Positions 5,249 through 44,973 of a DNA stretch of 48,656 bases are shown here, in pieces. Both the position numbers and the translations under genes were made by a program. The stretch is from Nitrosomonas sp. Lineage in GTDB: Bacteria > Pseudomonadota > Gammaproteobacteria > Burkholderiales > Nitrosomonadaceae. Each line of letters opens with the position of its first letter. The first letter of the stretch is position 1. The notes below the pieces were generated by a model that saw only the letters and a program-made list of their open reading frames with translations, made no database searches and had not been told where the DNA came from. The stretch is taken from assembly GCA_021774055.1 (NCBI GenBank), contig JAJFJL010000123.1:1-48656 (forward strand), given 5' to 3'.

Positions 5249-5355
5249 AATAAGTAAAATTAATATAAATTAGTTGATAGTCGGAAGTCATAAATTGCAA
5301 AATGAATGTTGCATACAGTTCGAATCAAAAGTATAGGAACAAAGCCTAATGCTAC

Positions 5356-5460
5356 ACTTTATTCTTTGGGAATATCAATAAGTATTTCACGCAGAATAAA
5401 ATTAACTCTATGAAACAATTTGTTACACATTATATGCGCGGTCACTTGCAGGATCTAGGT
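5356..5460. repeat. Family C palindromic element, left-truncated copy
   Basis: ttattctttgggaatatcaataagtatttcacgcagaataa...caatttgttacacattatatgcgcggtcacttgcaggatctaggt, near-identical to the right two-thirds of the copy at 44009-44173. Confidence 0.75.
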
Positions 5461-5727: not shown

Positions 5728-7263
5728 ATGAGTCTATTTAAAAACCTTGCTGCTGTTAGCAGTATGACATTTATATCACGAATTCTTGGTTTTTTACGAG
5801 ATGTGCTAATCGCTAGAACTTTTGGTGCAGGTATGGCAACAGATGCTTTTTTTGTTGCTTTTAGAATACCTAATTTATTACGTCGATTATTTGCAGAAGG
5901 TGCTTTTTCTATTGCTTTTGTTCCAATCCTTGCAGAATATAAAAATAATAAAACAGCAGAAGAAACGCGCAGCTTAATTGATCATGTTACTCAATTATTA
6001 GCTATAGCATTATTTGTAGTGACACTGGTAGGTATTGTAGCTGCGCCTTTGATTATTTATGCCAGCGCACCTGGTTTTTCAGCTAACCCGGAGAAATTTG
6101 CTCTAACAGCTGAATTATTACAGATTACCTTTCCTTATATCTTCTTTATTTCACTTGTATCACTGGCCGGTGGTATTTTAAATACATATGGGAAGTTTTT
6201 TGTCCCTGCATTAACGCCAGCGTTATTAAATTTATCTTTTATTGCTTGTGCTTTGTGGCTGGCGCCGTTATTAGATCCGCCGATTTTAGCCTTGGCATGG
6301 GCGGTATTTATTGGTGGTGTGTTGCAACTTGCGTTTCAAGTTCCTTTTCTTATTCGTATCAAAAGATTTCCACGGTTACGTTTTCGATCAGAAGATCAAG
6401 GCGCTTGGCGTGTTCTTAAACAAATGGGACCGGCTGTATTTGGTGTGTCTGTTGGTCAAATCAGCATGTTAATTAACACTATCTTTGCCTCATTATTGGT
6501 TAGTGGTAGTGTGTCATGGCTTTATTATGCAGATCGTCTAATGGAATTCCCTGCAGGTCTACTAGGTGTTGCTTTAGGAACAGTGTTATTACCTTCTCTA
6601 GCACGCCACTATTCCAGCCATAGCACTGCTAAATACTCGCAATTATTAGACTGGGGCTTACGTCTGACAATATTGCTGACACTCCCAGCTGCATTAGCCT
6701 TAGCCTTGTTAGCAACACCACTAATCACAACTTTATTTCATTATGGTGAATTTACAGCTAATGATGTATGGATGACACGTGATGCATTAATTTCATACAG
6801 TGTTGGGTTGTTGGGATTAATTTTAGTAAAAGTATTGGCGCCAGGTTTTTATGCCAGACAGAATATTAAAACTCCCGTAAGAATTGCAGTAGTTACGCTT
6901 GTCGCGACACAATTAATGAATCTTGCTTTCATCATACCGTTGCAACATGCTGGGCTAGCATTAGCAATTGGCTTGGGGGCTTGCATAAATGCAGGATTGC
7001 TTTATTACAAACTACGTAGCCATAAGATTTATCAACCACAGCCAGGGTGGCTAGTTTTTTTTATGAAAATATTAATCGCATTAGCTGTAATGGGAACAAC
7101 CTTATGGTTTATTAGTGGTAGTGACATTTCCTGGCTAGCCGATTCTGCCTCTAATCGTGCACTTCAATTAACCAAAGTGATTATCATCGGGGCTGCCAGT
7201 TATTTTATTGCGCTATGGGTGCTTGGTTTTCGTTTACAAGACTTTACCCTGCAACCTGACTAG
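5728..7263 (+). CDS. murJ: Lipid II flippase MurJ
   Basis: Polytopic protein with SRILGFLRDVLIARTFGAGMATDAFFVAFRIPNLLRRLFAEGAFSIAFVP. Confidence 0.95.
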   Translation: MSLFKNLAAVSSMTFISRILGFLRDVLIARTFGAGMATDAFFVAFRIPNLLRRLFAEGAFSIAFVPILAEYKNNKTAEETRSLIDHVTQLLAIALFVVTLVGIVAAPLIIYASAPGFSANPEKFALTAELLQITFPYIFFISLVSLAGGILNTYGKFFVPALTPALLNLSFIACALWLAPLLDPPILALAWAVFIGGVLQLAFQVPFLIRIKRFPRLRFRSEDQGAWRVLKQMGPAVFGVSVGQISMLINTIFASLLVSGSVSWLYYADRLMEFPAGLLGVALGTVLLPSLARHYSSHSTAKYSQLLDWGLRLTILLTLPAALALALLATPLITTLFHYGEFTANDVWMTRDALISYSVGLLGLILVKVLAPGFYARQNIKTPVRIAVVTLVATQLMNLAFIIPLQHAGLALAIGLGACINAGLLYYKLRSHKIYQPQPGWLVFFMKILIALAVMGTTLWFISGSDISWLADSASNRALQLTKVIIIGAASYFIALWVLGFRLQDFTLQPD

Positions 7264-7426
7264 TGCCTTGCACGCTAAATAACCAGGAAAATATGGGGGA
7301 TGCAAAAATTGTCGAGAACAAGGCGAAGAAGCACCGGCATATTGAGCATACGGCAAGTTTCTTCAACGCAGTTATCGGCAATTTGTGCCACAGATTTTCC
7401 TGGTTATTTAGCGTGCAAGGTACTAG
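7260..7426. repeat. Family A MITE-like element (copy A1)
   Basis: 33-bp terminal inverted repeats (one mismatch): ctagtgccttgcacgctaaataaccaggaaaat ... attttcctggttatttagcgtgcaaggtactag. Second, inverted copy at 13281-13450. Confidence 0.85.
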
Positions 7427-7458: not shown

Positions 7459-7618
7459 AGGAACGTGCATGAAATAAATTAGGCAACTAGCTTTGTATTT
7501 AAGCCCATCTTCTGCGTTGTGCAAACAGTTACATAGCCGTGCTATGCGCCTGTTTACACGCCTTGAATATGAACATAAATCCTGCGCTAGTTGCCTAATT
7601 TATTCCATGCACGTTCCT
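7459..7618. repeat. Family B MITE-like element (copy B1)
   Basis: Terminal inverted repeats aggaacgtgcatg(g)aataaattaggcaact ... agttgcctaatttattccatgcacgttcct; second copy at 43801-43986. Confidence 0.85.
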
Positions 7619-7620
7619 TA

Positions 7621-9108
7621 TTATTTTAACGAGTTAATAACTGATTTACGGATATCATATTCCTGTCCTTGATTGACAATTGTGAAATCTAAGTTATCTG
7701 GGTTTAAATAATTTAGCCCCTGTTCTTTTCCAGCGGCAAGAAAATCATTAATTGCTAGGCTATAAGTTTTATTAGCATCAATCTGGCTGCCATTAATACG
7801 CCAAGAACCATTATCATATCGAGTGTTAGCTGATTGTAGATAACCACCAGAACCTTTGTTTTTTAACCCCTGGTTAAGAACTTTTATCAACAAACTGCCT
7901 TTAATCTCGGCTAATTGAATATCGCCACCAAAAGGTAATACCCGGATAATATCGTAAACAGTTATTTTTCCTGCAGGTAAAATATCATCAATCCGAATTG
8001 AGCCACTGTTGTACAAAGAAAGTTCTGCTTCAGGGTATGGAGTCAACATGCTATTAGCGATCAATTCAGTTAAATTTGTTTGGCCATTTCGCACGCTTGA
8101 TTCCAAACCATCTAGTGCAACGCTAGTTGTGGTAATCACTTCTTCAGGTTGGAAGCCTTGTTTACGGAAAGCATCAAAAGCAATTGTTACCCATTGATCG
8201 ACAACTTTTTTTACCGCACTATCTTCAGCTAGTTTGTCATTAATAGGCACAAAAGTAGGTTTAATTTCTGTCTGGCCGGTTACTGGGTCATAATAAAGAT
8301 CAACAACATAAACTGAACGGACATTGGCATCCCCTTTAAGCAGCGGTGCAAAATTGCCACGCCAGCGTTGATAGTTAATATGTTCATGCCCTCCAAGCAA
8401 TAATCCAACCTGTGGATATTCTTGCAGTAAGGCAACATCATCTTTAATCGCTTGATGCGTTAAAGCGATAATAAAATCAGTCTTGTCTGCCAGCTGTGCT
8501 ACTTGTTCGCCAGCTGTAGCCAGCGGATCCGTGTAACGTACATAATCAGGTTTATTTACCGAAAGGGTTAATCCAAACATACCAAGATTAAATGTCTGTC
8601 CACTTTTTTTATCAACAATCGGAATAATAATATTTTCTTTAACACCAGTATGACGTTGCCCGTTAATATCAAATACATTACTGGAAACCCAAGTAAATTC
8701 AACTTCCTGCATACGTTGATTAAACTGTGCTTCCTTCAGGTCAAATTCATGATTCCCAAAAGTTGCATAATCTAATTTAAAATGATTCAGCACATCAACC
8801 ATTTGTCTGCCAGCTAAGCGGTCACCGTTATACTTTGCGGTGCCAATTGCCGAAGGGCTAAAAAGGTCACCACCAAGAGTTGTGATGGTATTAGGGTTAC
8901 GTGTTAACAATTGATTGCGTAATGTCGCTACCCGCGCAATCCCCCCTTCTTTGCCACCACTAACGGGGGTGATTTCATAAATATCATTGAAATGAATAAT
9001 CGTGACATGAATCCTAGCGTCATCTACAACTGGAATTGTAGTTGTAGAATATACGCTCAGTGAAACCATCAAACATAATGCCAACAGTAAGAAAATTAAT
9101 TTTTTCAT
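7621..9108 (-). CDS. Secreted bifunctional 5'-nucleotidase / 2',3'-cyclic phosphodiesterase (UshA/CpdB-like)
   Basis: Signal peptide; VTIIHFNDIYEITP, TLGGDLFSPSA, ATFGNHEFDL, LLLGGHEHINY; C-terminal 5'-nucleotidase domain. Confidence 0.85.
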   Translation of the reverse strand: MKKLIFLLLALCLMVSLSVYSTTTIPVVDDARIHVTIIHFNDIYEITPVSGGKEGGIARVATLRNQLLTRNPNTITTLGGDLFSPSAIGTAKYNGDRLAGRQMVDVLNHFKLDYATFGNHEFDLKEAQFNQRMQEVEFTWVSSNVFDINGQRHTGVKENIIIPIVDKKSGQTFNLGMFGLTLSVNKPDYVRYTDPLATAGEQVAQLADKTDFIIALTHQAIKDDVALLQEYPQVGLLLGGHEHINYQRWRGNFAPLLKGDANVRSVYVVDLYYDPVTGQTEIKPTFVPINDKLAEDSAVKKVVDQWVTIAFDAFRKQGFQPEEVITTTSVALDGLESSVRNGQTNLTELIANSMLTPYPEAELSLYNSGSIRIDDILPAGKITVYDIIRVLPFGGDIQLAEIKGSLLIKVLNQGLKNKGSGGYLQSANTRYDNGSWRINGSQIDANKTYSLAINDFLAAGKEQGLNYLNPDNLDFTIVNQGQEYDIRKSVINSLK

Positions 9109-9161: not shown

Positions 9162-9233
9162 CGTCATTCCTGCATGTTTTTAGCTGTAATCCAAGCTGAT
9201 GTGGATTCCTACTAAAAACATGCAGGAATGACG
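9162..9233. repeat. Hairpin-forming intergenic repeat (CGTCATTCCTGCATG type)
   Basis: cgtcattcctgcatgtttttag ... ctaaaaacatgcaggaatgacg inverted repeat. Confidence 0.7.
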
Positions 9234-12023: not shown

Positions 12024-13187
12024 ATGCTACAAACAAAAACGCAAGTTAACTATACCCGACCATTCATACTACTTGCCATAATAGCGTTGCTATCATTAAC
12101 GTTAGTATCCAATAGCCTTGCTAACGATGAAATTGAGTTTTTTAAATCAGCTTTTTCAGGTAAGCCAGAGACAATCAATCAACTATTAGAAAAAGGTCTT
12201 GATCCTGATCTACAAAATGAGGAAGGTTTCACTGTATTAATTGTCGCAGCTCAATTTGGTCATACAGATATTGCTAATATTTTGCTAGAAAAAAATGCTA
12301 ATCCTGATTTGCAAAATGAAGGTGGCACGACAGCGCTTATTGTCGCAGCTAAAAATGGTCATACAACAACTGTTGCAGCGTTATTGGAAAAAAATGCTAA
12401 CGTCAATCTGCAAACTAATGATGGTATTAGTGCATTAATGGTTGCCGCGATGAGCGAGCACACCATGATTGTTGATGCTTTATTAGAAAAAGGTGCAGAT
12501 ACCAATCTGCAAACTAAAGATGATGTCACCGCACTAATGGTTGCATCCTTAGGTGGCCATACTGCAATAGTTGAAAAATTACTAGTAAAAGATACTAATA
12601 TCAATACGCAAGCCAAAGATAAAACAAGCGCTTTATATATGGCCGCCCAGAACGGGCATGCTGACATTGTTGAGGCATTATTGGCAAACGGTGCTACCAC
12701 AGATATTAGGGCAATCAATGGTAATAGTGCATTATATATTGCGGTTCAAAACGGGCATATAGAAGCAACCAAGGCATTATTAAACAAAGATATAAATGTT
12801 GATTTGCAAGATAAGAATGAAGCTAGCCCATTAATTCTTGCGGCCCTATATGGTTATAACGAAATTATTGATGTGCTTTTAGATAAAGGAGCCTACGTTG
12901 ATTTACAAGCAAGAAATGGTTTTACCGCACTGATATTAGCTGCTCAAGGTGGTCATACCGCTATTGTTAATAGTTTGCTAGAAAAAAATGCCAGTATTGA
13001 CTTGCAAAATAATGATGGCATTACTGCGCTAATGTGGGCGGCGTTACATAGTCATGAAGATACTGTTGCATTACTATTAGAAAAAGGTGCTGATCCAACA
13101 ATATTAAGTGAAAGTGACAAGACTGCTTTAGATATTGCAAAAGATCCAGGGATTGTTAAATTGCTGGAAGCTGCTATAAAGAAATAA
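12024..13187 (+). CDS. Secreted ankyrin-repeat protein
   Basis: N-terminal hydrophobic signal, then about ten ~33-aa repeats (G.TALI.AA..GH..IV..LLEK.A). Confidence 0.93.
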   Translation: MLQTKTQVNYTRPFILLAIIALLSLTLVSNSLANDEIEFFKSAFSGKPETINQLLEKGLDPDLQNEEGFTVLIVAAQFGHTDIANILLEKNANPDLQNEGGTTALIVAAKNGHTTTVAALLEKNANVNLQTNDGISALMVAAMSEHTMIVDALLEKGADTNLQTKDDVTALMVASLGGHTAIVEKLLVKDTNINTQAKDKTSALYMAAQNGHADIVEALLANGATTDIRAINGNSALYIAVQNGHIEATKALLNKDINVDLQDKNEASPLILAALYGYNEIIDVLLDKGAYVDLQARNGFTALILAAQGGHTAIVNSLLEKNASIDLQNNDGITALMWAALHSHEDTVALLLEKGADPTILSESDKTALDIAKDPGIVKLLEAAIKK

Positions 13188-13195
13188 AAAAACAT

Positions 13196-13256
13196 AAATG
13201 GCCATACATATAATCTACAGCAAGTAATTACGCACAGGGCGTGTATGGCCATTTTT
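13196..13256 (+). terminator. Possible intrinsic terminator after ankyrin gene
   Basis: aaatggccataca ... tgtatggccatttttt inverted repeat followed by a T-run; long loop. Confidence 0.5.
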
Positions 13257-13280
13257 TGCAAGATCTAAGAAATACAATGA

Positions 13281-13450
13281 CTAGTATCTTGCACACGCTA
13301 AATAACTAGGAAAATCTGTGGCAAGAATTGCCGATAATTGTGTTGAAGAAACTTGACGTATACTCAATATGCCTGCGTTTCTTTGCCTTGTTCTCGACGA
13401 CTCTTGCAACTCCCCATATTTTCCTGGTTATTTAGCGCACAAGATACTAG
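13281..13450. repeat. Family A MITE-like element (copy A2, inverted relative to A1)
   Basis: ctagtatcttgcacacgctaaataactaggaaaat ... attttcctggttatttagcgcacaagatactag; interior matches the reverse complement of A1. Confidence 0.85.
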
Positions 13451-17597: not shown

Positions 17598-17764
17598 AAC
17601 CTAGATCATGCAAGTGATCATGCATATAGTGTGTAACAAATTGTTCCATAGAGTGAATTTTATTCTGTATGGAATACTCGTTGATATTTCTAAAGAATAA
17701 AGTTTGCTATATGGAACAATCTGTTGTGCAAAATGTGTATGATCACTTGCAGTGATCTAGGTTT
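17598..17764. repeat. Family C palindromic element (full length, about 167 bp)
   Basis: aacctagatcatgcaagtgatcatgcatatagtgtgtaacaaattgttccata ... tatatggaacaatctgttgtgcaaaatgtgtatgatcacttgcagtgatctaggttt. Confidence 0.85.
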
Positions 17765-27624: not shown

Positions 27625-27642
27625 AGGTTTATTTTTGGTGGG

Positions 27643-27943
27643 TGAAGCTGGCCGATAAGCCGGGTTTTGTCGTGGACAGTCATTCATCTAGGCATATTGT
27701 TACCAATATGCTCAAGCAACCTACCCGCAGACTCAGCGAGCCGCATCAAAGCCTGCCTATTTGGTTTTGCTCCGGATGGAGGTTGCCGCGTTTCACCGTA
27801 ACTAAATACGCTCGTCTCTGTGGCCCTATTCCTCACCTCACGGCGGTCGGTCATTAGCCGACACCCTGCTCTATGGAGCCCGGACTTTCCTCCCCTCATT
27901 TCCCATTACTAGAAAATAAGCGGCGACTGCCTGGCCAGCTTCA
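27643..27943 (-). ncRNA. rnpB: RNase P RNA component, class A (compact)
   Basis: Minus strand: GAAGCTGGCCAGGCAGTCGCCGCT...GGGGAGGAAAGTCCGGGCTCCATAGAGCAGGGTG...CTCCATCCGGAGCAAAACCAAATAGG...GGGTAGGTTGCTTGAGC...GCCTAGATGAATGACTGTCCACGACAAAACCCGGCTTATCGGCCAGCTTCA. Confidence 0.97.
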
Positions 27944-29699: not shown

Positions 29700-29848
29700 C
29701 CTGGTGCCTTGCGAGTGCTTGTGCATATCCAGCACAACAGATTGTTCCATATAGTAAACTTTATTCCCCTAGGAACATAAACAAGCATTCCATGCAAGTC
29801 AGAATTAACTTTATAAAACAATTTGTTGCACATTATATATACTACCGA
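29700..29848. repeat. Family C element, decayed copy
   Basis: ccttgcgagtgcttgtgcatatccagcacaacagattgttccatatagtaaactttattc...caatttgttgcacattatata. Confidence 0.65.
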
Positions 29849-29877
29849 TTAGGCGCTCGGTAACTAAAATCAATCTA

Positions 29878-30010
29878 GGACTTACGCATTGACAAAATTA
29901 TATAGTTTACAATCAGTAAGTTGAAGTAGGTGGAGGAATCAGAGAATGAGTTTTCTATCCGCCTAACTTATTGATAAACCAATGTTCTTATTTGTCAATG
30001 TGTAAGTCCT
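29878..30010. mobile_element. 133-bp MITE with IS-type TIRs (family E)
   Basis: aggacttacgcattgacaaa ... tttgtcaatgtgtaagtcct TIRs; subterminal arms atcagtaagtt / aacttattgat. Confidence 0.8.
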
Positions 30011-40525: not shown

Positions 40526-40712
40526 TGGGAATATACATGAAACAACTAGGGGTAACTTACTTTGTATTTATATTACCTAGATCCTGCAAGCAATAGTGTA
40601 TATCGTGCATATAATGTGTTACACATTATATGCACGATATACACTATTGCTTGCAGGATCTAGGTATTAATTTTCTACGTTATGCAAACAGTTACCGCGC
40701 GAAGTATAAATA
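40526..40712. repeat. Relic of a family B-like element interrupted by the family C palindrome
   Basis: gaatatacatgaaacaactaggggtaacttactttgtatttata [40574-40666] ttctacgttatgcaaacagttac aligns with B1 gaacgtgcatgaaataaattaggcaactagctttgtatttaagcccatcttctgcgttgtgcaaacagttac; right flank ends gcgcgaagtata as in family D. Confidence 0.6.
40574..40666. repeat. Perfect 93-bp palindrome (family C), 46-bp arms, 1-nt centre
   Basis: tacctagatcctgcaagcaatagtgtatatcgtgcatataatgtgt-t-acacattatatgcacgatatacactattgcttgcaggatctaggta; arms are exact reverse complements. Confidence 0.95.
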
Positions 40713-42430: not shown

Positions 42431-42514
42431 AACCTAGGCCTTGCAAGTAATCATGCGTATAGTGGTAACAATACGTTGTGCAAAATGTGTATGATCATTT
42501 GCAGGGTCTAGGTA
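42431..42514. repeat. Family C element, 84-bp class
   Basis: aacctaggccttgcaagtaatcatgcgtatagtggtaacaatacgttgtgcaaaatgtgtatgatcatttgcagggtctaggta. Confidence 0.8.
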
Positions 42515-42557
42515 TAGCTATTCCCGTGCGATGGGAAAAGGTGAAGCGGTATTTAAG

Positions 42558-43598
42558 TTACGGTTTTATATAGTTTAATAGTGGTTTTGTTCTGTGCCAA
42601 AATTTCTTTAAATGTGTGCGTGTTAATGTTAAATCTTTAGTAGTATGTTCATTAATGTCAGTTATTATTAGCTTGTCTATTTGTCCTTCTTTTAGCGCTA
42701 TATACAAAGGTTTTAGCCAGTCTTGCTCCAGTTTATTAAAGTTTTCCCGCCAACCAAAAATATCATTGTATTGTGTTTTTTTTCTTAATTCATCAAAGAT
42801 TACAAGATGGCTGCCTGGTATACGTTTTTTTTGCCAGATTTCAGCATTAAGTGGTCGTTCGGTATGTTTAGTTTTACTAGATAAAGCTAGACCGTACGCA
42901 AGTGTATCGTTGCTCCATATTTGAGTGTAGGTTGTATGTATATCTTTTGGCATAATGCCCCCACCCCAAAACCAAATACCGTTAATTGCTAATTCATTAC
43001 GAAGTTGTCTGGCTTCGTTAATAGGGTGTTCATGCAACAACATTTGTATTTCATTAGAAATATTATGCCATGCAGTGCTGTCTTTGCCGAATGGCAAAAG
43101 ATTGTTGATATTTCTACCGGCAACTTCACCAAGTGAATGCATTTGAAGGTCGGGTGCTTGAGCGACTCGTAGGTACCAACAATCAGAATCTAGTGGTAGA
43201 AATGTTAGCATGTCTTTAGCAAAGTGTTGGTTAAGTATATCGGAAAATAGTCGGGATTCCTCTGTGGTGATTTGAAAAGCCTGGCTATCAGCCAGTAAAA
43301 TATGATTTTGCTCAACTCTAAAATGTACAGGGTCTGCACGTAACCAATAGTCTTCATAGGCACAAATATTACTATTTTTTGTGGTTTCTAGCATTATTGG
43401 TGCTACTGGCCAATTTTGTTGTTTGGTTATACCAAAAGCTTGGCAAAGCCAGGCTTCTATTTCCTGGGCTGGTTTTTTTGTGTGTGTGGCTTTAGCAAGT
43501 AAAATTTCTAACGTTGGTAATGTTAGGTCTTGATAAATTTCATGTGATAGCTTGTTGTACCAAAAAAGAGATGGTGCGAATAAGTGAAATGTGACCAT
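42558..43598 (-). CDS. RpfE/phosphoglycerate-mutase-like conserved protein
   Basis: CAYEDYWLRADPVHFRVEQNHILLAD; LPFGKDSTAWHNISNEIQMLLHEHPINEARQLRNELAINGIWFWGGGIMP. Confidence 0.65.
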   Translation of the reverse strand: MVTFHLFAPSLFWYNKLSHEIYQDLTLPTLEILLAKATHTKKPAQEIEAWLCQAFGITKQQNWPVAPIMLETTKNSNICAYEDYWLRADPVHFRVEQNHILLADSQAFQITTEESRLFSDILNQHFAKDMLTFLPLDSDCWYLRVAQAPDLQMHSLGEVAGRNINNLLPFGKDSTAWHNISNEIQMLLHEHPINEARQLRNELAINGIWFWGGGIMPKDIHTTYTQIWSNDTLAYGLALSSKTKHTERPLNAEIWQKKRIPGSHLVIFDELRKKTQYNDIFGWRENFNKLEQDWLKPLYIALKEGQIDKLIITDINEHTTKDLTLTRTHLKKFWHRTKPLLNYIKP

Positions 43599-43664
43599 AA
43601 ATATTTAGATCCAGGGATATTCTGCCTAAAAATATAACAAGTTACTATAGAAACGTTATTTAGT

Positions 43665-43722
43665 ACTAGACCCTGCAAATGATCATGCATATAGCGTGTA
43701 TGATCATTTGCAGGGTCTAGGT
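43665..43722. repeat. Family C element, ~55-bp class
   Basis: ctagaccctgcaaatgatcatgcatat-agc-gtgtatgatcatttgcagggtctag. Confidence 0.8.
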
Positions 43723-43800
43723 GGTAATTCCAAGAGATATATAAATATACTTTCTGAAGCAATATATTGTGCATTCTAGCTTGTTTTTTTAATCATTACA

Positions 43801-43986
43801 TAGGAACGTGCATGGAATAAATTAGGCAACCATCTTTGTATTTAAGCTCATCTTCTGCGTTATGTAAATAGTTACATAGCCGTGCTATGTGCCTGTTTAC
43901 ACGCCCCCGTATCAAGTACGGGGCAGGCTTTGAATATGAAGGTAAATCCTGCGCTAGTTACCTAATTTATTCCATGCACGTTCCTA
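43801..43986. repeat. Family B element (copy B2) with nested mini-palindrome
   Basis: taggaacgtgcatggaataaattaggcaac ... gttacctaatttattccatgcacgttccta; interior carries ccccgtatcaagtacggggcagg, absent from B1. Confidence 0.85.
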
Positions 43987-44008
43987 TGGTTTTATATGTC
44001 GATTGCTA

Positions 44009-44173
44009 TACCTAGATCCTGCAAGTAATCGCACACATACTGCACAACAGATTGTTCCATATAGCAAATCTTATTCTTTGGGAATATCAATAAGTATTCC
44101 ACGCAGAATAAGATTCACTCTATGAAACAATTTGTTACGCATTATATGCACGATTACCTGCAGGATCTAGGTT
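44009..44173. repeat. Family C element, full-length class (~165 bp)
   Basis: tacctagatcctgcaagtaatcgcacacatactgcacaacagattgttccatatag ... ctatgaaacaatttgttacgcattatatgcacgattacctgcaggatctaggtt. Confidence 0.85.
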
Positions 44174-44220
44174 ATACCTAAAAAAACGAATAAGAATTTT
44201 ATGCCATAATGTACAAACTA

Positions 44221-44252
44221 TTAAACCTAGATCCTGCCGGACCTAGGTTTAA
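44221..44252. repeat. Family C minimal remnant (32 bp)
   Basis: ttaaacctagatcctgccggacctaggtttaa. Confidence 0.65.
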
Positions 44253-44392
44253 TTCTTATTCCAACATTTTAGGCTATGTAAAGGTGTTATCAGTTTAACG
44301 TATAATAGCCCTTAAATTTTGCGATCAAGTATAGATTATTTGTATTAGTTATATGATATTTATGCCTAATTGGTCTGCATACCTAGATACTA

Positions 44393-44884
44393 ATGAGTAA
44401 CCGTATTCCCATGGGGCATATTACTGCATTGATAGTATGGGTCGTTATATTTAGTACGATCTATATGTATTTTAATGTTCAACAAGGACCTAAAGTTGCC
44501 GTAGCTATAGAAAATTTGACCTTTGGTCAGATAGTTATACCAAGATCACCGGATGGACATTATTATGTCAGAGGATCAATCAATGGTCACTCGGTTGATT
44601 TTATGGTTGATACTGGCGCAAGTATTGTTTCTGTAAGCAAGGCATTTGCAAGTGCGGCTAATCTGCCGAGTGGAGTCCCGGCAAGCCTTTCAACCGCAGG
44701 TGGCATTGTTCGGGGTGAAATTACTTCTGGCCAAATTGTTGAAGCAGGTGGTATCGCCGTAAATGGCTTGAGTGTAAGTGTTGGTATCCATGGGAGAATG
44801 GCTCTGCTTGGCCAGAATTTTTTACGTAGAGTAGATGTTATACAGTCAAATGACACTATGACATTAAGAATTAGAGCAGAATAA
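44393..44884 (+). CDS. Retropepsin-like clan AA aspartic protease
   Basis: One TM segment plus HYYVRGSINGHSVDFMVDTGASIVSVSKAFA; MALLGQNFLRRVDV. Confidence 0.85.
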   Translation: MSNRIPMGHITALIVWVVIFSTIYMYFNVQQGPKVAVAIENLTFGQIVIPRSPDGHYYVRGSINGHSVDFMVDTGASIVSVSKAFASAANLPSGVPASLSTAGGIVRGEITSGQIVEAGGIAVNGLSVSVGIHGRMALLGQNFLRRVDVIQSNDTMTLRIRAE

Positions 44885-44889
44885 AGTTT

Positions 44890-44973
44890 AACCTAGATCC
44901 TGCAAGTGATCTGTATATAGTGTGTAACAATTTGTTGTGCAAAATGCGTGGGATTACTTGCAGGATCTAGGTT
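44890..44973. repeat. Family C element, 84-bp class
   Basis: aacctagatcctgcaagtgatctgtatatagtgtgtaacaatttgttgtgcaaaatgcgtgggattacttgcaggatctaggtt. Confidence 0.8.

Follow-up and report, generated by a model that had tools for sequence, protein, structure and literature searches.

The window, by which we mean the whole 48,656-nucleotide stretch of DNA analysed, carries palindromes of several sizes that share their ends and differ in how much of the centre is left, here called family C. What kind of element are they, what moves them, and how do the small forms arise? The original prediction was of a palindromic element, non-autonomous and shrinking by symmetrical deletions of its centre, or a mobile REP- or MITE-like system. 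The reading we favour, to which we give a probability of about 0.83, is that family C is a MITE with IS1380-type ends that is moved in trans and has followed or switched its IS1380 partners, its short classes being in-place derivatives.

Anatomy and target site in the Nitrosomonas genome

The 15-base end CCTAGATCCTGCAAG occurs 11 times in the window with up to two mismatches, compared with 0.08 expected from shuffles. A covariance model recovered all nine of the copies originally listed, together with one weak extra (Table 1). The positions given for these copies stand, but their outermost one or two bases belong to a 5-bp target duplication and the element proper ends in CCTAG/CTAGG. Similarly, the 32-bp class proposed at 44221-44252 is a real copy, but consists of a 22-bp core plus flanks. 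No internal promoter or terminator beyond chance was found in the window copy examined. The last 80-bp copy has a retropepsin-like gene on one side and an isocitrate/isopropylmalate dehydrogenase gene on the other; in nine relatives no clean empty site was readable at the dehydrogenase gene, the intergenic DNA being too diverged.

Table 1. Family-C copies in the window
Feature	Position	Strand	Flanks, score or remark
Full-length 161-bp element	44011..44171	- (sense strand on -)	flanks CTATA / TTATA, 4/5 duplicated; 175 bits
Full-length 162-bp element	17600..17761	+	flanks TTTAA / TTTAG; 158 bits
Diverged full-length copy, ends decayed	29700..29860	-	68.6 bits
Copy with one end intact, one arm decayed	5301..5459	-	45.6 bits
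89-bp near-perfect palindrome, both arms left type, common private insert	40576..40664	.	exact target duplication TATTA
80-bp form of 81 class, centre lost between ACAA/TTGTT motifs	42433..42512	+	
80-bp form of 81 class	44892..44971	+	flanks TTTAA / TTCAA
57-bp form	43665..43721	.	
22-bp minimal form, two ends only	44226..44247	.	flanks TTAAA / TTTAA
Possible very decayed copy	13127..13269	+	weak: 17 bits, E 0.013

The genome is a Nitrosomonas MAG, a 3.07-Mb draft in 256 contigs that is 84% complete. It contains 446 near-exact end motifs (224 + 222), compared with 2 in reversed controls, and probably holds roughly 220 family-C elements (about 200 copies). Pairing ends less than 400 bp apart in 1.34 Mb of this genome gave 129 elements. 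The full-length form is 161 bp, running from CCTAGATCC exactly to GGATCTAGG, and its consensus is an imperfect palindrome, self-complementary at 114 of 161 positions. It contains no gene and is too short to encode a transposase.

Directly outside CCTAG...CTAGG lies a 5-bp TNNNA duplication, exact in 59 of 122 elements where shuffled pairs give 5.6. T stands at -5/+1 in about 90% of cases and A at -1/+5 in about 87%; the rate of duplication is equal in every size class. This direct duplication sets the limits of the element and marks it as a transposon bearing a DDE-type signature. The copies are all intergenic, none of 123 lying inside a crude ORF. Their orientation has no relation to GC skew and is random with respect to neighbouring genes (38:32 tandem), an early 16:7 bias not having held in this larger count. 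Short, non-coding, bounded by terminal inverted repeats and a target duplication, high in copy number and mostly intergenic, family C is a MITE by anatomy, and the non-autonomous palindromic element of the prediction is borne out.

Other repeats occur alongside it. A second palindromic family (AGGAACGTGCATGGAATAAATTAGGCAAC...) lies at window positions 7459-7618 and 43799-43988, and one of its copies is nested in a family-C element elsewhere in the genome (L077:16417-16737). Another inverted-repeat insert (ACTTCGCACGGTCATAGTTTCGG...) lies inside a family-C element at L128:467-789. Two near-identical stretches of about 240 bp (L062:9400 and L133:399) open with a family-C end (CCTAGATCCTGCAAGTGGGGTTCC...) before diverging, and may represent another element fused to that end. 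The window also contains an inverted repeat family, CTAGTGCCTTGCACGCTAAATAACCAGGAAAAT, at 7260-7426 and 13296-13437, an inverted repeat, AGGACTTACGCATTGACAAA, at 29877-30010 with arms 94 bp apart, and a class A RNase P RNA at 27640-27942 (-). A REP-like repeat, CGTCATTCCTGCATGTTTTTAGCAGG, adjoins two RAYT-like Y1 transposase genes (window 9162-9233; L061 about 6330-6450; L067 about 8560-8610); it is this repeat rather than family C that seems linked to the genome's RAYT genes.

Size classes and shrinkage

The lengths of the 129 paired elements, proposed as a check on the size classes, fall into discrete peaks at 161 bp (45 copies), 81 (8), 55-57 (9), 36 (4), 32 (3) and 22 (9), with mostly singletons between them; 62 copies away from contig ends measure 158-164 bp. 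The classes first listed (~165, ~84-93, ~55 and 32 bp) are therefore discrete as claimed, except that the 89-bp copy is not a simple deletion product, both its arms being of the same type and carrying the same private insert of ~9 bp.

The junctions of the shortened forms lie within 3 bp of the dyad in 35 of 48 cases, compared with 22 for random junctions, and the words at the junctions are the same or nearly the same on both strands: AACAA.TTGTT gives the 81-bp form, GATC the 36-bp form and TGCA the 22-bp form. Any self-palindromic word in an arm is necessarily repeated directly by its mirror in the opposite arm, which accounts for the discrete classes. The 81-bp forms resemble each other (0.859) no more than they resemble 161-bp forms trimmed to match (0.853), and hence are not a clade and arose repeatedly. 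Clustering of breakpoints on the dyad, discreteness and the lack of an 81-bp clade all agree with the predicted shrinkage by symmetrical internal deletion. A pure direct-repeat model of the sizes was only partly predictive, as the asymmetric products it predicts at 102, 119 and 143 bp were not seen. Since asymmetric repeats of equal strength gave no products, a hairpin must bring the two sites together.

Plain deletion does not seem to explain every short form. The same arm type is found on both sides in 7 of 10 informative forms of 52-58 bp, compared with 15 of 58 full-length elements, on a typing based on three diagnostic bases. Many copies of the 55-57-bp class, and the 89-bp window copy, look like products of fold-back template switching. 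The smaller classes would thus be in-place derivatives of the full-length element: the palindrome would extrude, and replication would skip its upper stem, jumping between short self-palindromic words placed opposite one another on either side of the dyad. Alternatively the nascent strand may fold back and copy its own arm, giving many of the 55-57-bp forms and the 89-bp copy. The shortened outcomes are present in the genome; the replication steps that produced them are our proposal.

Distribution, fold and competing readings

A pattern scan found the same element, 160-164 bp long and homologous in its interior, in Sedimenticola, Ectothiorhodospiraceae, Chromatiales, Lysobacterales and other gammaproteobacterial MAGs. 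For the search of relatives that had been proposed alongside that of the genome, an even sample of Gammaproteobacteria was used: the covariance model identified homologues in 24 of its 368 other genomes (about 7%), representing 22 genera. Most are 157-164 bp long, and an exact 5-bp target duplication flanks 30 of 51 copies in other genera. The interiors align across lineages (GTGCAAGATATTGATT ... ATCAAGAGCTTGTGC) and the termini vary between them (CCTGAATCCGT.., CCTAGAAACGGCAGTTG.., CCTAAAAACCTCAGTTG.., CCCTAATCCCCAGATAG..). The family is ancient and class-wide, and its ends change with the IS1380 partner. Congeners are almost without the element, and the only one sharing it in full corresponds to Nitrosomonas sp. 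OFTM255. A Nitrosomonas-type copy (L230:1793-1953, JAJDCA010000013.1) lies on a contig assigned to 'Omnitrophota' OFTM38; OFTM38 and OFTM255 belong to one sample series, and the assignment is probably a misbinning. In another genome a SAH riboswitch lies near a copy (L320:2902-2975).

The fold itself is conserved. Compensatory changes on both sides are seen in 37 of 46 pairs of a free alignment, and the covariation score is 0.541, compared with 0.237 after shuffling and no more than 0.176 when the register is slid, some relatedness bias being inherent in such counts. The mismatches between the arms read as G-U wobbles in one orientation and A-C in the other, with 11 G-U against 2 A-C at majority sites and 189 against 37 in class-wide cells. 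The sense strand is the more stable as folded RNA in 44 of 45 copies from the Nitrosomonas genome, 25 of 25 gammaproteobacterial copies and 32 of 32 class-wide, the last count being biased by the covariance model's having picked the strand. Copies within the Nitrosomonas genome depart from pairing with no strand bias (106 G-U against 101 A-C). As single copies decay neutrally and are randomly oriented, it seems that the fold matters for the propagating lineage rather than for individual inserted copies.

Such a fold might belong to a host-domesticated RNA element, a regulatory or mRNA-processing hairpin selected at many loci, as the strong covariation, strand-specific G-U pairing, fixed length across the class and wholly intergenic position would allow. 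We consider this very unlikely, as departures from pairing within the Nitrosomonas genome favour neither strand, the copies have no preferred orientation to the genes beside them and are free to decay and shrink, and congeners almost lack the element. The covariation could instead be the work of mutational arm correction only, through hairpin template switching and with no selection on the folded strand; arm-copying products are indeed visible in the 89-bp window copy and the 55-57-bp class. Correction alone would give perfect palindromes and erase wobble pairs, yet across genera the G-U pairs persist at the same positions, and on one strand only. This explanation is possible but, we think, doubtful.

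The size classes might also be separately mobile subfamilies, with the 81- and 55-bp forms transposing as such rather than arising by recurrent deletion, and target duplications are as frequent in short forms as in full-length ones. The 81-bp forms do not cluster by sequence, and short forms in other hosts (38, 55 and 61 bp) are independent, carrying those hosts' own arm sequences, which makes separate subfamilies improbable. An element of REP/REPIN type, moved by a RAYT (Y1 tyrosine) transposase that reads the palindrome as a single-stranded hairpin, would also be intergenic, palindromic, abundant and better folded on one strand, and the Nitrosomonas genome has 15 Y1_Tnp matches. Against it are the 5-bp target duplication with matching terminal repeats, and ends that match IS1380; Y1 enzymes are not known to make such duplications and repeats. 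The two Y1 genes that were inspected adjoin a different repeat, CGTCATTCCTGCATG, and lie no nearer to family C than expected by chance (2 of 5 fall within 1 kb, with 17% expected for each). The REP-type tyrosine transposase, which the prediction had offered as an alternative, can be set aside as extremely unlikely.

IS1380 ends and comparison with known systems

The mobiliser, left as unknown in the prediction, is probably an IS1380-family DDE transposase, to judge from the matching ends and the target duplication, with none found in the Nitrosomonas genome itself. ISEcp1, a member of the IS1380 family, has the IRL CCTAGATTCTACGT and a TCATA duplication (PMC7864471), which is a TNNNA site. Family C shows the same kind of signature as IS1380/ISEcp1, with CCT/CCC terminal bases and a 4-5-bp duplication. 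Two contigs of genome G465 carry the C-terminus of an IS1380 transposase (NF033539) and are almost identical as far as ...TTACTTGCAGGATTTAGG, beyond which they differ; this fixes the right end of this IS1380 as CCTAAATCCTGCAAGTAA, the family-C end. The IS is seen only as C-terminal fragments plus the right end at contig edges. A second pair in G465 consists of a roughly 1.64-kb IS1380 (L346) and an element of 157 bp (L332); with ends CCCCAGATAGAAAC, the two have 18-19 of 20 terminal bases in common (CCYAAYCCCCAGATAGAAAC). The ends of a 1615-bp IS1380 in G155, with the duplication ACATA, match those of elements L323 and L335, and a 1687-bp IS1380 in G444 (CCTAGAAAAATCAGTTA, duplication ATGAT) has ends resembling those of L334.

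IS1380 is carried by 7 of 25 genomes with the element and 41 of 344 without it, a modest excess (Fisher p 0.03), and in most element-bearing genomes none was detected. No IS1380 transposase above the cut-off was found in the Nitrosomonas MAG (84% complete, 256 contigs) or in G019. Within the genus 27 of 86 genomes have IS1380, and no copy with family-C ends was found among the loci inspected; these were rejected as partners, having related but different ends (e.g. CCCAGATTTTCCAT, duplication TTCAA). Long end pairs 350-4000 bp apart in 1.34 Mb of the Nitrosomonas genome amounted to three weak ones, none with a transposase. The family-C ends thus match autonomous IS1380 elements in other genomes and none found in the Nitrosomonas MAG, a match at the level of the family only.

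In three genera the left flank next to the family-C end is the same, C(G/C)GACAGGCT|CCTAG (L062:9386-9420, L237:7440-7460, L340:1486-1520), which suggests a recurrent target or an IS inserting at CTAG.

The ends, their duplication and their match to IS1380 are observed; from these, we infer that IS1380 transposases catalyse the movement of family C in trans. The CCTAGATCCTGCAAG termini would be the terminal inverted repeat of an IS1380-family transposon, recognised by a transposase acting in trans that inserts the element into AT-rich intergenic TNNNA sites and duplicates 5 bp. The autonomous partner would carry an intact transposase between CCTARATCCTGCAAG ends. With all its termini of IS1380 type, an element with a covarying fold and a length near 160 bp would have followed or switched IS1380 partners. 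A bolder idea is that the roughly 160-nt fold is an ancient parasite of many IS1380s that has lasted across Gammaproteobacteria through end exchange, its spread needing a single-stranded, strand-specific fold (RNA or ssDNA). Such a step is not known for DDE transposition, and we regard the idea as unlikely, offering it tentatively.

A MITE is usually viewed as a short-lived deletion derivative of a single insertion sequence. In this case one fold and one length persist across roughly 20 bacterial families, with termini that vary with the IS1380 partner, and varying termini on one fold make end exchange and co-divergence testable against each other. The graded copies are a record of long palindromes shrinking and re-copying their arms in bacterial chromosomes. 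As IS1380 members such as ISEcp1 move resistance genes, the limits on IS1380 end recognition are of practical weight.

The family had not been recognised as a named repeat, and Rfam gave no match above the gathering score, only a sub-threshold match to a microRNA model in L323. Plasmid and phage collections gave no match to the element. The end CCTAGATCCTGC was not found printed as a repeat end in the open-access literature searched, ISfinder being outside the comparison.

Family C resembles ISEcp1/IS1380 in its ends, CCTAGAT(T/C)CT.., and its 5-bp TNNNA target duplication, and end-matched IS1380 elements occur in genomes bearing family-C-type elements. It differs in being about 160 bp long, palindromic throughout and without a transposase, the IS1380 elements here being 1.5-1.7 kb. 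ERIC, RUP and NEMIS/Correia are intergenic imperfect palindromes of 100-170 bp, in tens to hundreds of copies, which form hairpins when transcribed (PMC10969869). Family C is likewise an imperfect, intergenic, hairpin-forming palindrome with many copies. The sequences are unrelated; those MITEs duplicate TA and not a 5-bp TNNNA site, and family C differs also in its mobiliser, which would be IS1380 rather than IS630-type, in its graded central deletions, and in its presence in many bacterial families with differing termini. REP/REPIN palindromes with their RAYT share its intergenic position and high copy number, but family C has a target duplication and DDE-type ends, and the RAYT genes inspected in its genome stand beside another repeat. 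TIMEs, the Tn3-derived inverted-repeat miniature elements, are also non-autonomous and have a 5-bp duplication; the Tn3 end begins GGGG, and that of family C is CCTAGATCC. Two things are unusual in family C: a single fold and length have persisted across the class with IS1380 ends that change, and the two strands are asymmetric.
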